Shown in pieces: positions 3,508 through 33,570 of a stretch of 36,453 nucleotides of DNA; position 1 is the stretch's first letter; the number at the start of each line of letters is the position of its first letter. Origin of the DNA: a virus. The notes under the pieces were generated by a model. It saw nothing but the letters and a program-made list of their open reading frames with translations. It was not told the origin of the DNA and ran no database searches. The stretch covers positions 1-36,453 of IMG/VR virus record IMGVR_UViG_3300027977_000094, one strand, 5' to 3'. The position numbers and the translations under genes were made by a program.

Positions 3508-3762
3508 ATGAACACAACAAATTTAATTTCAACACCAGATATTACTGGAAACATTGGAAGCTGTAATACATCAGTTGAAAGAGTAGTAACTTACAATAGA
3601 TTTTTTACTCAGGAAGGATTCACACTTGCAACAAACTCATGCGATGGAACAGTCGTCGAAACCCCATATTATTCATCAGCAGGGATAGGTGTATTCATTG
3701 GAGTATTTCTTGTAATTGCTTTCTTTTCATGGCTTATTGGATATTTTATGGGTGGCTACTAA
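3508..3762 (+). CDS. Membrane protein with C-terminal anchor
   Basis: 84 residues. The N-terminal 57 residues are polar with two cysteines (C19 and C45); the C-terminal segment (about 58-80, GIGVFIGVFLVIAFF) is a membrane anchor ending in a glycine-rich tip. AAGAGG precedes the start by about 12 bp. Third consecutive membrane-associated gene, possibly one functional unit. No family recognised. Confidence 0.6.
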   Translation: MNTTNLISTPDITGNIGSCNTSVERVVTYNRFFTQEGFTLATNSCDGTVVETPYYSSAGIGVFIGVFLVIAFFSWLIGYFMGGY

Positions 3763-4000: not shown

Positions 4001-4027
4001 TTGACACAACCAAAAGTATGATAGAAT
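4001..4027 (+). promoter_or_regulatory. Promoter of the chaperonin/head operon
   Basis: TTGACA (4001-4006), a perfect -35 match, is followed after 15 bp by TAGAAT (4022-4027); overlapping -10 alternatives give a slightly longer spacer. It lies between two gene blocks and directly upstream of the structured leader 4041-4095. Confidence 0.65.
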
Positions 4028-4040
4028 AGAGGTATTACAA

Positions 4041-4095
4041 GCCAAATAATTTTTACTCTTCACTTCTCTTTATTTGGCGGAGTGAAGAGTAAAGG
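4041..4095 (+). promoter_or_regulatory. Two-state mRNA leader that can hide the ribosome-binding site (fourU-like)
   Basis: Hairpin 1 pairs GCCAAATAA (4041-4049) with TTATTTGGC (4070-4078). Hairpin 2 pairs 4050-4066 with 4079-4095; its core is 13 perfect bp (4052-4064 with 4081-4093). The arms interleave, and the joints at 49/50 and 78/79 leave no loop for a pseudoknot, so the hairpins should exclude each other. The only Shine-Dalgarno-like sequence, AAAGG (4091-4095), is paired with five consecutive T/U (4050-4054) in hairpin 2 and is free in hairpin 1. The start codon at 4105 is 9 bases downstream. Pairing U runs with the Shine-Dalgarno is the hallmark of fourU RNA thermometers, and the operon encodes a chaperonin. 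Confidence 0.6.
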
Positions 4096-4104
4096 TACAT
4101 ACAA

Positions 4105-4575
4105 ATGAAAAATAAAGATTTGTTAAGTTTATACGAAACATTGAAACAGTTAGACTTAATAGGAGTGAGGTTTAATTATGCAGTTGCTAGAAATATAGCA
4201 AAATTAAAGCCGGAAATTGAGTCTCTTTTTAAGGCGCAAGAAAAAACAAAAGAATTCAGTGATTTTGATTTGAAACGAGTGGAGATAGCAAAAAAGTACT
4301 CTAAAAAAGACGAAAAAGGCGACCCTGTTATTGTAGATAACAAATACGACATTGATGATCAAGAAGGGTTACAGAAAGAATTTGACACTCTTAAATCAGA
4401 AAATACTAAAGTAATAGAAGAACGGGAAAAACAACTTGAAGTATTCAATGAACTTTTAGAACAGGAAAACGATATTGAACTATATACTATTAGTTCTTCA
4501 GAAATTCCTCAGGAAATTTCTACAAAACAATTATCAGGTATTTTAAGTATTGTAAAAGATGAAAATATCAATTAA
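4105..4575 (+). CDS. DUF1617-like phage protein
   Basis: 156 residues, first gene behind the switch-like leader. The pattern of an N-terminal LYETLKQL helix, VARNIAKLKPEIESL, a long charged coiled coil with KYSKKDEKGDPVIVDNKYD and a final helix resembles DUF1617 proteins, which sit in tail/head regions of phages of Gram-positive bacteria. It overlaps the chaperonin gene by 17 bp, so the two are probably translationally coupled and may function together. The family call is from memory of the pattern. Confidence 0.55.
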   Translation: MKNKDLLSLYETLKQLDLIGVRFNYAVARNIAKLKPEIESLFKAQEKTKEFSDFDLKRVEIAKKYSKKDEKGDPVIVDNKYDIDDQEGLQKEFDTLKSENTKVIEEREKQLEVFNELLEQENDIELYTISSSEIPQEISTKQLSGILSIVKDENIN

Positions 4576-6064
4576 AGGTTTTGAGGCACGAAATAAAGCA
4601 ATAGAGGGTGTAACATATGTTGGGGATGCCATTAAAAGTACAATAGGTCCATTTGGGCTTAACTTTATGCTGGAAAAAGGTAATAAGCTAACAAATGACG
4701 GATACCTCATTGCTTCTGAACTTGCCCCAACAGTTGAAAATGAATTTGCAAGGCGTGGAGCTCTAGTTGCACATGAGGCGTCGTCAAAAACAAACGACGA
4801 GGTAGGAGACGCAACATCAACAGCATGGGCTTTGACAATGGATATTATTAAAGAAGCCGTGCGGTACCTTCCTTCTGATAAAATCGGTAAGGCTAAAAAA
4901 CAACCTTCAGAAATCCGGGAACAAATAAAACAAGAACGACAACAAATTGAAGAAAAGTTGCAAACTATGATCCACAAGATTGAATCAAAAGAAGAACTGA
5001 TACAATCAGCTATGGTGTCAGTTGAGGACGAAAATGTTGCAAAACTTCTAGGAGAAACACAATGGGAGCTTGGACCATACGGTAGAATTGTTGTTGAGGA
5101 AGTTAATGAAACTGAATGTTCTATTGAAAAAGGAATAGGTATTAGACTAGACAATGGTTTTGGCGCTACACACTTCATAACTAACCAAGAAAAAGGTACG
5201 ATGGAACTTTCTGAAATACCAGTATTTTTGACAAATTACACCATTGGTATTGAAGAATTAACAAAACTTCAAGAGCTTATACTCAAAGACCTTATCGCTC
5301 AAAAGAAGTGGGGTATTATTATAATCGGACGAGCGTTTACAGCAGATGCAATTAAAGCGTGTACAGAATCTATGCAATCAGGTTTTCCTATATTCCCGAT
5401 AAATGCACCATATGTAGATCAAAGAGAAGTTATGCGCGATATTGAAGCAGTCGTTGGTGGAAGATACATTGATTCACAGGAAACATCACTAGACGAAGTA
5501 TTCCTCACTGATGTTGGATACATCAAACGAATCGTTGCGAGCATGACTAGTGCAGAAATTGGCGGTATTGAAGACGAAAAAGCAAAAGAAAGAATAGAAA
5601 AACGAGTAGCTACTCTCCAAGAAAAACTCAAAGGAGAAAAGTCTGATTTTGGCAAGAGAATGATAGAAGAAAGAATAGCACAACTTACAGGAGGTTTTGC
5701 GGTTCTTAAAGTAGGTTCGTACTCAGTCGTGGAACGAAAACGTCTCAAAGATAAGTGCGATGACGCAGTTCACTCGGTACGTCTTGCACTACAAGGAGGA
5801 ACTATTAAAGGAGCAGGTATAGCATTAAAAGAAATATCTGATACCATGGAAGATGGAAGTATCCTCAAGCGACCAATTAGAGGAATTTATGATCACATTA
5901 TTAGTTCAGCACCAGAAGACTGGAATGTACCAGAATGGGTACGAGACCCGTATCTATCAATATCATGTGCATTGAAACACGCCTGTGACACCGCAAGCGC
6001 TTTCGCAACAGTTAATGGTGTTATAACCGAGGAAAATCCTCAAAAGTGTAAGTGTAAACAATAG
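4559..6064 (+). CDS. groEL-like: Phage GroEL-type chaperonin
   Basis: 501 residues; GroEL is usually about 545. It folds protein clients in an ATP-driven ring. The equatorial and intermediate signatures are present: STIGPFGLNFML (28-38), TNDG with D47, GDATST with D84, and KCDDAVH with D402. These align with E. coli D52, D87 and D398, so the three catalytic aspartates are kept. The apical region (about 180-335, GIGIRLDNGFG to SAEIGGIE) also aligns. The C-terminus lacks the GGM repeats and ends CKCKQ. No GroES gene was recognised, as in phages EL and OBP, whose chaperonins are described as working without a co-chaperonin. Immediately upstream of packaging and head genes, it probably folds virion proteins. 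Start chosen at the ATG overlapping the previous gene by 17 bp. Confidence 0.95.
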   Translation: MKISIKGFEARNKAIEGVTYVGDAIKSTIGPFGLNFMLEKGNKLTNDGYLIASELAPTVENEFARRGALVAHEASSKTNDEVGDATSTAWALTMDIIKEAVRYLPSDKIGKAKKQPSEIREQIKQERQQIEEKLQTMIHKIESKEELIQSAMVSVEDENVAKLLGETQWELGPYGRIVVEEVNETECSIEKGIGIRLDNGFGATHFITNQEKGTMELSEIPVFLTNYTIGIEELTKLQELILKDLIAQKKWGIIIIGRAFTADAIKACTESMQSGFPIFPINAPYVDQREVMRDIEAVVGGRYIDSQETSLDEVFLTDVGYIKRIVASMTSAEIGGIEDEKAKERIEKRVATLQEKLKGEKSDFGKRMIEERIAQLTGGFAVLKVGSYSVVERKRLKDKCDDAVHSVRLALQGGTIKGAGIALKEISDTMEDGSILKRPIRGIYDHIISSAPEDWNVPEWVRDPYLSISCALKHACDTASAFATVNGVITEENPQKCKCKQ

Positions 6065-6319: not shown

Positions 6320-6475
6320 ATGCCACTCAAAAAAGGAAAAAAGAATATAAGCAAAAACATTAGAGAGCTTGTAGCTGATAATAAGAAATCAGGGAAAGCC
6401 AAAGGAGCAAATGGAAAAACACGAAGTAGAAAACAAATCTTAGCAATTGCTTTATCTGTTTCTAAAAAGAAGTAG
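6320..6475 (+). CDS. DUF6496-like small basic protein
   Basis: 51 residues, start overlapping the end region of the previous gene (TAATATG). The pattern MPLKKGKK, ISKNIRELV and a C-terminal KQILAIALSVSKKK matches a common phage/prophage miniprotein (DUF6496-type), usually near packaging genes. The longer overlapping frame from 6197 runs inside the previous gene and is not needed. Function of the family is unknown. Confidence 0.65.
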   Translation: MPLKKGKKNISKNIRELVADNKKSGKAKGANGKTRSRKQILAIALSVSKKK

Positions 6476-6484
6476 TTTCTATAC

Positions 6485-6510
6485 TCACCTCATAAGAAAT
6501 TATGGGGTGG
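6485..6510 (+). promoter_or_regulatory. GAAA-tetraloop hairpin before the terminase genes
   Basis: CACCTCATAA (6486-6495) and TTATGGGGTG (6500-6509) form a 10-bp stem (one G-U) closed by a GAAA loop, extendable by one G-U pair. No T tract follows. Likely an mRNA stability or processing element between the chaperonin and packaging genes. Confidence 0.55.
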
Positions 6511-6536
6511 AATATGGAAGCTAAACACTAAACACC

Positions 6537-14182: not shown

Positions 14183-14197
14183 TAGATCATTCTTTTA

Positions 14198-14220
14198 CTC
14201 AGACCATTATGTGGTCTGAG
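14198..14220 (+). terminator. Strong hairpin after the beta-helix gene
   Basis: CTCAGACCA (14198-14206) and TGGTCTGAG (14212-14220) form a perfect 9-bp stem with a 5-base loop. There is no good T tract behind it, so it may be a partial terminator or an RNase-protecting 3' end for the abundant capsid mRNA. Confidence 0.5.
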
Positions 14221-14254
14221 ATAAGTGAGGGATTACTAATTAAAAAATAACATT

Positions 14255-28067: not shown

Positions 28068-28167
28068 GAGGTGTCTTTCGTGGTGGCTATGGTGTAGTGG
28101 TAACATTCCTCACTGTGACCGAGTAGACTAGGGTTCGATTCCCTGTAGTCACCCCAAAAGACATCTC
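28068..28167 (+). promoter_or_regulatory. Helix bracketing tRNA-His, competing with terminator
   Basis: GAGGTGTCTTT (28068-28078) pairs over 11 bp (one G-U) with AAAGACATCTC (28157-28167). The arms sit immediately outside the tRNA (3 bases on the left, none on the right), so a folded tRNA would bring them together. The right arm is also the left arm of the terminator at 28157-28182, so both cannot form at once. Confidence 0.55.
28082..28156 (+). tRNA. trnH: tRNA-His (GTG), CCA encoded
   Basis: Acceptor GTGGCTA (28083-28089) pairs with TAGTCAC (28146-28152). The extra G at -1 (28082) opposite C73 (28153) is the His identity signal. CCA is encoded (28154-28156). D stem GTGT/ACAT, loop CTGTGAC with anticodon GTG, T arm TAGGG/CCCTG. 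The anticodon stem is weak: only three central pairs with mismatches at both ends. Confidence 0.85.
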
Positions 28168-28182
28168 TACGATGTCTTTTTT
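28157..28182 (+). terminator. Intrinsic terminator/attenuator after tRNA-His
   Basis: AAAGACATC (28157-28165), loop TCTAC, GATGTCTTT (28171-28179), T run to 28182. It sits inside the tRNA operon between the first and second tRNA, so it could limit expression of the other four. Confidence 0.75.
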
Positions 28183-28187
28183 AGTAA

Positions 28188-28261
28188 CAGAATAAAGTGT
28201 TATGGTCGCATTCAGGTCTTGGATACCTGCGGTCTGGGTTCAATTCCCAGTATTCTGACCA
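28188..28261 (+). tRNA. trnP: tRNA-Pro (TGG), CCA encoded
   Basis: Acceptor CAGAATA/TATTCTG (7 bp, C1-G72 as in bacterial tRNA-Pro), anticodon stem CAGGT/ACCTG with loop CTTGGAT, anticodon TGG, T arm CTGGG/CCCAG, terminal A + CCA. It decodes CCA, which is frequent in the capsid gene. Confidence 0.92.
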
Positions 28262-28262
28262 T

Positions 28263-28347
28263 GCGGAAGTGGTGAAATTGGTATACACGTCAGTCTTAGA
28301 AACTGATGACGAAAGTCGTGAGAGTTCAAGTCTCTCTTTCCGCACCA
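28263..28347 (+). tRNA. trnL: tRNA-Leu (TAG), CCA encoded
   Basis: Acceptor starting GCGGAAG, paired at the 3' end, anticodon stem TCAGT/ACTGA with loop CTTAGAA, anticodon TAG. The long variable arm (GACGAAAGTC) gives a type II tRNA. ACCA is encoded. Only one base separates it from tRNA-Pro. Confidence 0.93.
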
Positions 28348-28348
28348 C

Positions 28349-28421
28349 TCACAAGTGGCTTAATGGATAAAGCACCCGCCTTCGAAGCGGTAGATTGCAG
28401 GTTCGAGTCCTGCCTTGTGAA
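28349..28421 (+). tRNA. trnR: tRNA-Arg (TCG), no encoded CCA
   Basis: Acceptor TCACAAG/CTTGTGA, anticodon stem with loop CTTCGAA, anticodon TCG, T arm GCAGG/CCTGC. The base following discriminator A is CCC, not CCA, so host CCA addition is needed. It reads CGA, the dominant Arg codon of the virion genes. Confidence 0.93.
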
Positions 28422-28425
28422 CCCT

Positions 28426-28496
28426 TGGAGAATCGTCTAGAGGTAGGACGGGGGACTTTGAATCCCTAAACCTAGGTTCGATTCCTAGTTCTCCAG
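28426..28496 (+). tRNA. trnQ: tRNA-Gln (TTG), no encoded CCA
   Basis: Acceptor TGGAGAA/TTCTCCA with discriminator G, anticodon stem GGGGA/TCCCT with loop CTTTGAA, anticodon TTG, T arm CTAGG/CCTAG. It decodes CAA, the main Gln codon here. The following bases are CAT, so CCA is not encoded. Confidence 0.92.
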
Positions 28497-30814: not shown

Positions 30815-30863
30815 AGTTAGCACTAGAAACGAGGAGATTGTCGCTAACTCAGTCTCCTCTTTT
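30815..30863 (+). promoter_or_regulatory. Attenuator-like leader of the HNH gene
   Basis: Stem A: AGTTAGC (30815-30821)/GCTAACT (30843-30849). Stem B: 30831-30840 with 30850-30859, 10 bp containing GAGGAGA/TCTCCTC, followed by TTTT, an intrinsic terminator shape. The right arm of A is the loop of B, with no linker, so the two should compete. ATG of the next gene at 30875. Confidence 0.5.
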
Positions 30864-30874
30864 CTGGGAAATAT

Positions 30875-31267
30875 ATGGAAAAATGTTCACATTGTAAAAA
30901 GATCACAGATTACTTTGTTAAAGTTTGTAGTCGAATAAATAAAAAAGGTCAAAAAATATACTACTACTGGTGTAATGACTGCAACACTGAAAGAGTTAAA
31001 AAGTATAGGGATTCTGGTGGAATAAAAAAGATAAGAGAAGCTGTCTACCGTTCTGTTGAAAAACACAAAGAAAAACAGAGTGCACGAGCTAAACTTCATT
31101 ATTGGATTAAAAAAGGTCTCATCAAAAAACCGAAGCATTGTGAAAAATGCAAGGAGGAGAAAATAGAAGCCCATCATACGGACTATTCAAAACCTCTCGA
31201 AGTTTTGTGGCTTTGTAAAAAACATCACAGACAAGAACATGAAAAAGAAAACACTCACATTTTATAA
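30875..31267 (+). CDS. Zinc-finger HNH-type protein
   Basis: 130 residues. CSHC (4-7) and CNDC (33-36) form an N-terminal zinc knuckle; after a basic helical linker the C-terminus has CEKC, then EAHHTDYSKPLEVLWLC and HHRQEH, an HNH/His-Me finger core with structural cysteines. Likely DNA-cleaving, possibly a homing-type nuclease. Its leader resembles an attenuator. Confidence 0.75.
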   Translation: MEKCSHCKKITDYFVKVCSRINKKGQKIYYYWCNDCNTERVKKYRDSGGIKKIREAVYRSVEKHKEKQSARAKLHYWIKKGLIKKPKHCEKCKEEKIEAHHTDYSKPLEVLWLCKKHHRQEHEKENTHIL

Positions 31268-32318: not shown

Positions 32319-32332
32319 TTATAAGTTTTGCA

Positions 32333-32387
32333 TTCGTTAGCCTATATCTCACCTACTTGCAAAACGGGTGAGGTATGGACTAACGAA
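32333..32387 (+). promoter_or_regulatory. Long hairpin in the initiator mRNA leader
   Basis: TTCGTTAG (32333-32340)/CTAACGAA (32380-32387), CC/GG, a four-pair segment and CTCACC (32348-32353)/GGTGAG (32367-32372) make one continuous 20-bp helix with two single-base bulges and a 13-base loop. It begins within about ten bases of the predicted transcription start and ends 10 bases before the ATG at 32398. Confidence 0.65.
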
Positions 32388-32397
32388 CAAATAAAAT

Positions 32398-33156
32398 ATG
32401 GAAAAAGAGTATTTTGAAGTAAGGGACATGAGAAACAAAGAAAAGTTTTTTGTTGATGACGCTTATTTGAATGGATACGCAAAACATCTAGGAACCACGA
32501 CATCGATGGTTTATTTTGTTTTGTGTCGTCATGCTGATAAAAACCAAGAATGTTTTCCTTCAATGGAAACAATGGGAGAAAAAATAGGGGTGAGTAGGCA
32601 CACAACAATGCGTTCAATTAAGATTCTTGAAGAGTGGAATATCATACAAAAAGGGAAAAGAATACGAAACAAAAAAGGAGTATGGTTGCATAATACCTAC
32701 ACTCTCATGGACAAAAGTGTGTGGAAAAACAAACCAAGTAGCACTGATGCAACATGGACTCCAAGTAGCACTGATGCACCTATCCATGTAGCACCCATGC
32801 ACCTATCCATGTCGCACCCATGCGACACTAAGGATACACATAGGAAGGATACACATATATTGTCGTCTACCGACGACGCTGTAGATTTCTCACAAGAGTT
32901 AAAAAAACTAGAAGACAGTAAAAGTAGACATTTGAACATAATTGGTTTTTACATGGATGTTAGGAAAGCGACCCTCCGCCCGAAAATCACAACTAAGTCT
33001 CAACTCTCCGCTTTCATAAAGCGTCACGCAAAATCAGCGAGTGCATTATCCGTTTACACCGACGATCAGATTGTCTCCGCAAAAGAAGAAGTAGAAACAA
33101 AATACAAGGACATAGATTGGACCCTGGAAACTTTAATTAAACAGCTAACTAAATAA
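32398..33156 (+). CDS. Replication initiator-like winged-helix protein
   Basis: 252 residues. The N-terminal half has a winged helix (about 30-92) with PSMETMGEKIGVSRHTTM and RSIKILEEWNII, of the HTH_36 type found in phage initiators and replisome organisers such as lambda O-like proteins. About 115-160 is a low-complexity linker encoded by the iteron repeats. The C-terminal domain (about 170-252) is helical and may recruit a host helicase or loader. It lies at the head of the replication module, with promoter, DnaA box and long leader hairpin. Confidence 0.75.
   Translation: MEKEYFEVRDMRNKEKFFVDDAYLNGYAKHLGTTTSMVYFVLCRHADKNQECFPSMETMGEKIGVSRHTTMRSIKILEEWNIIQKGKRIRNKKGVWLHNTYTLMDKSVWKNKPSSTDATWTPSSTDAPIHVAPMHLSMSHPCDTKDTHRKDTHILSSTDDAVDFSQELKKLEDSKSRHLNIIGFYMDVRKATLRPKITTKSQLSAFIKRHAKSASALSVYTDDQIVSAKEEVETKYKDIDWTLETLIKQLTK
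32739..32877 (+). repeat. Iteron array inside the initiator gene, putative replication origin
   Basis: A 10-bp core GCAC(T/C)(G/C)ATGC occurs four times at 32741, 32768, 32791 and 32814 (spacing 27, 23, 23). The first two lie in 18-bp identical copies (32734 and 32761). Then come two perfect 13-bp direct repeats AAGGATACACATA (32830-32842 and 32845-32857), a short AT run and an inverted repeat GTCGTC/GACGAC (32862-32877). Iterons plus AT-rich DNA inside the initiator gene is the lambda ori layout. Confidence 0.6.
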
Positions 33157-33521: not shown

Positions 33522-33570
33522 TTGACACAGAACCCCCTTTCGTATAAGATATAGGTATTATTAAGTTAGC
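33522..33570 (+). promoter_or_regulatory. Promoter and AAGTTAGC leader element
   Basis: TTGACA (33522-33527), 17 bp, TAAGAT (33545-33550; TATAAG at 33543 is an alternative). AAGTTAGC follows at 33563-33570. The same element occurs 18 or fewer bases after other early -10 sites (30814, 35774). Confidence 0.55.

Follow-up and report, generated by a model that had tools for sequence, protein, structure and literature searches.

Two mutually exclusive helices before a phage chaperonin operon: a candidate co-transcriptional timer of translation that recurs in uncultured phages

The chaperonin operon of an uncultured virus (IMG/VR record IMGVR_UViG_3300027977_000094) is preceded by a leader with two helices, a short A:A' and a long B:B', whose arms alternate in the order A-B-A'-B'. 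Since the arms cross, the helices are mutually exclusive. The whole stretch analyzed, here called the window, is 36,453 nt long. What has been computed is that the two folds exclude each other, which of them forms first, how stable each is, and that the architecture recurs upstream of ATG codons in unrelated sequences. We give about even odds (roughly 0.5) to the reading that this leader is a co-transcriptional kinetic switch, through which young mRNA would be translated and later shut off. We infer that A:A' would be the ON state and B:B' the OFF state in the cell, and infer likewise the delay, the coupling of the chaperonin gene, and a biological purpose.

A re-reading of the sequence confirmed that the leader pairs at 9 of 9 positions in A:A' and, with G-U pairs included, at 17 of 17 in B:B' (Table 1). 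No linker separates A from B or A' from B' (0 nt each), B and A' are joined by a 3-nt loop, and B' is followed by a 9-nt gap to the ATG. The region from 4030 to 4125 has a predicted fold of -28.9 kcal/mol (z = -5.66), and none of 200 shuffles was as good. An earlier note on this DNA had reported two interleaved stems, and these proved exact at 9 bp and 17 bp, with the shuffles arguing against chance. It had also placed AAAGG opposite five U in the longer stem, which was confirmed (U4050-4054 against A4091-G4095; three A-U and two G-U pairs), and the predicted A:A' fold keeps B' open, in agreement with its view that the 9-bp stem frees AAAGG. Its description of AAAGG as the sole Shine-Dalgarno (SD)-like sequence holds at usable distances from ATG 4105, yet SD-like sites of -5 kcal/mol or better were found for just 11 of 50 phage genes. 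On geometric grounds (linkers of 0 to 1 nt and unequal helix lengths), we ruled out a compact pseudoknot in which both helices form in full.

The operon had been said to code for GroEL, and this was borne out, as the second gene encodes a relative of Cpn60/GroEL (PF00118, E = 5e-19; phrog_5725, E = 1e-63). The label "DUF1617-like" for the first gene was not upheld; Pfam returned no such domain for its protein, which matches phrog_1401, and its homologue in contig L073 comes after the chaperonin gene. The chaperonin gene begins before the first gene has ended, with an overlap of 17 nt, an arrangement that probably couples chaperonin translation to that of the first gene. Members of this uncultured phage family commonly carry a GroEL-type chaperonin gene 5' of the terminase or portal genes, at about 45 to 64% identity (the window's own gene and those of L003, L067, L068, L069, L070, L072, L077, L081, and L087), and the gene immediately 5' of it varies among members. 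Elsewhere in the window, five tRNA genes are clustered at 28083-28496, and an 18-bp tandem repeat family (GGCAACGCACGGGTTTAT) lies at both contig ends (5-43 and 36256-36453), with similar repeats in L013; these end repeats suggest a circular or terminally redundant genome. When cellular genomes were scanned with the capsid protein, a single contig, from a Methylococcaceae MAG, was returned, too weak a result to name the host.

Table 1. Leader elements and adjoining genes in the window and in related contigs
Feature	Location	Strand	Basis or remark
Promoter-like TTGACA-N15-TAGAAT, extended -10 TATGATAGAAT	window 4001..4027	+	consensus match, not proof; predicted +1 near 4034
ATTACAA immediately 5' of A	window 4034..4040	+	
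Arm A, early helix (GCCAAATAA)	window 4041..4049	+	pairing, folding prediction
Arm B, late helix (TTTTTACTCTTCACTTC)	window 4050..4066	+	pairing, folding prediction
Arm A', early helix (TTATTTGGC)	window 4070..4078	+	pairing, folding prediction
Arm B', late helix (GGAGTGAAGAGTAAAGG), with AAAGG at 4091-4095	window 4079..4095	+	pairing, folding prediction; ends 9 nt 5' of ATG
156-aa gene, first behind leader, phrog_1401 family	window 4105..4575	+	phrog match
Phage chaperonin (GroEL/Cpn60)	window 4559..6064	+	Pfam and phrog matches
Second interleaved element, A AGTTAGC, A' GCTAACT, B 17-18 bp	window 30815..30867	+	scan; ends 7 nt before ATG 30875
130-aa Cys/His-rich protein	window 30875..31267	+	HNH-like motif by eye; no Pfam match
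Third interleaved element, A GTTTTGCA, A' TGCAAAAC, B 21-22 bp	window 32325..32387	+	scan; ends 10 nt before ATG 32398
252-aa helix-turn-helix protein, first gene of 32.4-35.7 kb cluster	window 32398..33156	+	HTH_36, weak RepL
Interleaved element	L092 18669		before glycosyltransferase gene
Interleaved element	L093 18356	-	directly before G002 chaperonin; first seen in L070; sequence unrelated to 4041-4095
Interleaved element	L097 7018		before HNH-AP2 gene; overlaps a reading frame
Interleaved element	L102 6879		before Cys-rich gene, HNH-like by eye
Interleaved element	L108 2728		
Interleaved element	L111 106	-	
Interleaved element	L116 5851		
Interleaved element	L139 2900		
Looser element	L093 11484	-	
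Looser element	L159 11334		

Relatives were collected through terminase, capsid, and chaperonin searches, and whole contigs were read. An interleaved-helix scan found the same architecture three times in the window, before genes 4105, 30875, and 32398, and also in eight related phage contigs, with an A helix of 7 to 9 bp, a B helix of 14 to 22 bp, linkers of 0 to 1 nt, a loop of 2 to 8 nt, and 5 to 16 nt to the ATG. On the window's plus strand, the 70-nt stretches that rank first to third in stability all directly precede start codons. The elements are intergenic with the single exception of L097, and no common sequence is evident between the arms of different loci. Among relatives the architecture is present in some and missing in others. 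Orthologous chaperonin leaders of L003, L067, L068, L069, L072, L077, L081, and L087 contain no interleaved element, and it is likewise missing before relatives of other element-bearing genes (the L106 glycosyltransferase and the L093 HNH gene). Searches with the 156-aa protein and the 32398 protein gave no leader-bearing relatives, and no orthologous pair of leaders with the element was found among the gathered relatives; it recurs instead in unrelated sequence. One candidate, L092 5042, was dropped as a member of the plain-hairpin class before o14255 orthologues whose A arm is probably chance. Searching viral contigs for exact copies of one arm returned 39 loci, which were attributed to chance, and the partner arm was present in the same virus only.

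Counting elements that end 3 to 20 nt before an ATG, we found 11 in 4,488 leaders and 1 in 22,440 shuffled leaders; a smaller test with other settings gave 9 in 2,259 leaders and 0 in 4,518 shuffled ones. The interleaved arrangement, present three times in the real window, appeared 0 times in 15 dinucleotide shuffles of the whole window, and under the strict rule shuffled windows held nothing as strong as its three elements. Unrelated viral contigs (319 kb) gave 1 match, far from any ATG, and the first 50 kb of T4 (1-50000) gave none. An A helix of at least 7 bp accompanied 6 of 54 strong leader hairpins, against 0.17 expected, so the A helix does not arise simply as a consequence of B. The short helix comes first in every element, and the mirrored order, with the long helix first, occurred in zero cases. 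The scan settings were fixed after the first cases were known, including the window's three, which are therefore not independent evidence; the eight elements outside the window are, apart from the shared scan rule. Loose scans that allowed gaps and low pair density were swamped by noise, worst in GC-rich contigs, and were not used. These counts bear on the notion that the element has no regulatory role and is due to chance or acts at the DNA level, as an operator or recombination site. Its failure to be kept at orthologous positions would fit that notion, but the shuffle statistics, the sense orientation, and the fixed distance to the ATG all count against it, and the unrelated sequences speak against a DNA-binding site, so that we give it very little credence.

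The earlier note had attributed control of translation to temperature or folding kinetics, likening the leader to a fourU RNA thermometer that opens with heat. As in such thermometers, one of which is already known from a phage (SPbeta blyA; PMC10586365), at least four U are paired with the SD-like sequence; the five U lie at the open end of the stem, which frays first, and the operon encodes a chaperonin. However, the stem is far too stable for the SD to open between about 25 and 42°C. In folding predictions at several temperatures, the check that the note itself had called for, AAAGG stayed closed from 10 to 42°C; its bases were unpaired at 0.1 to 1% at 25°C and 0.3 to 12% at 42°C in the predicted ensemble, the last G exceeded 50% unpaired only between 55 and 60°C, and the predicted melting temperature of the 4041-4095 leader was near 96°C. 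An Rfam search of the leader gave no fourU match, either at gathering scores or at E values up to 10, and at gathering scores the window and seven related loci yielded tRNAs alone. Nor is a U run opposite the SD common to the sister elements, most of which have no SD in B'. By eye, an obvious SD-like run in B' was kept in just two leaders, this one and that of the G002 chaperonin, and the feature common to the elements is therefore occlusion of the initiation region, not of the SD. A thermometer would, moreover, leave A:A' unexplained. We rejected it as highly improbable; control by temperature is unsupported.

The folding-kinetics half of that claim fared better, with the helices exclusive, their order the same in at least 11 leaders, and the behavior predicted in 11 of 11. 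Nascent-chain folding was modeled for 11 elements. In every one, as in known metastable leaders, the early fold is possible before the final one is transcribed: A:A' is the best predicted fold once A' emerges, and B:B' overtakes it after 7 to 15 nt of B' are out. All B:B' pairs cross A:A', and the final fold is the stabler by 4 to 21 kcal/mol (about 11 kcal/mol in the 4041-4095 leader). The pseudoknot-free (nested) barrier from A to B is 10 to 17 kcal/mol (14.1 at 4041-4095), which at attempt rates of 1e6 to 1e7 per second corresponds to refolding times from under a second to many hours; these are upper bounds because exchange through the loop is ignored, and strand exchange that starts in the loop could speed up refolding far beyond what the nested barrier implies. 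In the proposed mechanism, transcription would begin a few bases 5' of A, and A:A' would snap shut as A' leaves the polymerase, holding B in its loop. B', carrying AAAGG in this leader, would be single-stranded when made, allowing ribosomes to load. Because all B:B' pairs cross A:A', B:B' would form only as A:A' opens; the resulting 17-bp stem directly before the start codon would then shut initiation, largely limiting translation to young transcripts or to those whose ribosomes keep B' occupied. Given that B' stays open in the A:A' fold and that B:B' pairs the bases ahead of the AUG, ON first and OFF later is the simplest reading. The cost of closing B' is uncertain, since most genes of this phage have no SD.

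The promoter-like boxes upstream of the leader are the single match in the window; by eye, a similar TTGACA ... GGTATTA lies near 33524-33560. Here and in L092, L139, and L093, clear -35/-10 boxes place the expected +1 on or close to the bases that immediately precede A, in several cases at or near ATTA, and the element would therefore fill the whole 5' UTR. Promoter scores across all elements were moderately above chance (88 versus 68.7), and the promoter evidence is clear in some elements only. Of 13 elements, 9 have ATTA within 10 nt 5' of A (2.1 expected; 0 of 2,000 shuffles as good), and none of the 13 has it in the next 10 nt upstream. This ATTA could belong to a recognition site if the leader were instead a regulated bistable switch, with ON or OFF set by a trans factor (a protein of phage or host, a small RNA, or another) that binds the A:A' form or releases B', timing being secondary. 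Regulated leaders are usually laid out in this way, with exclusive folds that end near the ribosome site. We nonetheless consider such a switch unlikely: the three elements of this one phage have no common arm sequence, which makes a sequence-specific binder unlikely, and the equilibrium gap given above is large for most ligands. The alternative folds of lambda cIII have near-equal stabilities, whereas here B:B' wins by that gap.

Intergenic hairpins of T7 are RNase III-type processing sites, and stem B, at 14 to 22 bp, might similarly be cut after transcription, freeing or stabilizing an mRNA 5' end. The stems are long and near-perfect, and plain hairpins without A also precede starts in the same phage family; processing would, however, need B alone, so that an A helix fixed in place and order would go unexplained, and several stems fall short of two helical turns. 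We regard this role as distinctly unlikely. Among the plain hairpins, a long one at window 14183-14254 lies about 15 to 30 nt before a structural gene, and hairpins before the same gene in relatives (L080 6472, L083 8356, L084 6372, and L099 18425) differ in sequence and have the same fold. They are a second, positionally conserved class of leader hairpin. Another strong plain hairpin, with a 4-nt loop, lies at window 6473-6523, just 5' of packaging gene 6537.

Two further interleaved elements adjoin terminators, and the class may for that reason not always act on translation. At L116 9143-9225 the B' arm also takes part in an intrinsic terminator hairpin (GAGACGCCagaaaGGCGTCTCATTTTT), which competes for it, and the element, which precedes an SU10-type adaptor gene, could work as an attenuator with three states. 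At 3543-3625 on the minus strand of L100, B:B' ends in a terminator-like T run and an ATG is not close; a small RNA or an attenuator is possible there. Part of the class may thus act on transcription. As an account of the class as a whole, control through pausing, attenuation, or antitermination by the two folds is quite improbable, a T run after B' being absent in the 11 elements before an ATG.

The kinetic switch would have a close parallel in the leader of the MS2 maturation (A) protein, in which, according to work cited in PMC6733600 (Groeneveld 1995; van Meerten 2001), a transient early fold keeps the start region of a phage gene open and permits translation before a stable final fold closes it. 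MS2, as described there, is an RNA phage with a cloverleaf fold, whereas the elements studied here are compact two-helix 5' UTRs before unrelated genes of DNA phages. In the type I toxin mRNAs hok/sok and aapA, a metastable 5' hairpin is likewise made during transcription and then replaced by a stable closed fold, but the transient hairpin is the OFF state, translation stays off until processing, and the pairing is long-range, 5' to 3', in a toxin-antitoxin context (PMC6733600). By analogy, our leader would act like that of MS2 and in reverse of the aapA leaders. Leader hairpins of T4 e, soc, 49, and I-TevI also occlude the initiation region, homing endonuclease genes included; they are single, and gene e escapes through late promoters that omit the 5' arm of the hairpin (PMC3014915). 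In our elements, the clear promoter-like boxes are all predicted upstream of A, so that both arms would be transcribed. Alternative leader structures set translation of a phage gene in lambda cIII as well (Altuvia 1989, as cited in PMC10586365).

No description of an interleaved leader class came up in the open-access literature searched. With somewhat less assurance than for the switch itself, and a little short of an even chance, we propose an undescribed class of DNA-phage 5' UTR: a sequence-independent A-B-A'-B' leader that would fill the whole 5' UTR and time translation as a module, placed ahead of chaperonin, HNH, glycosyltransferase, and replication genes in a family of uncultured tailed phages. 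With its crossing helices, such a class would be missed by homology searches and by ordinary covariance searches. Its design rule is plain (short helix first, long helix second, zero linkers, 5 to 16 nt to the AUG), so that it can be tested with reporters and searched for. Kinetically controlled mRNA leaders have so far been a few single cases; if the proposal is true, folding order itself would be a portable control element of phages, of fixed geometry and reused without common sequence.
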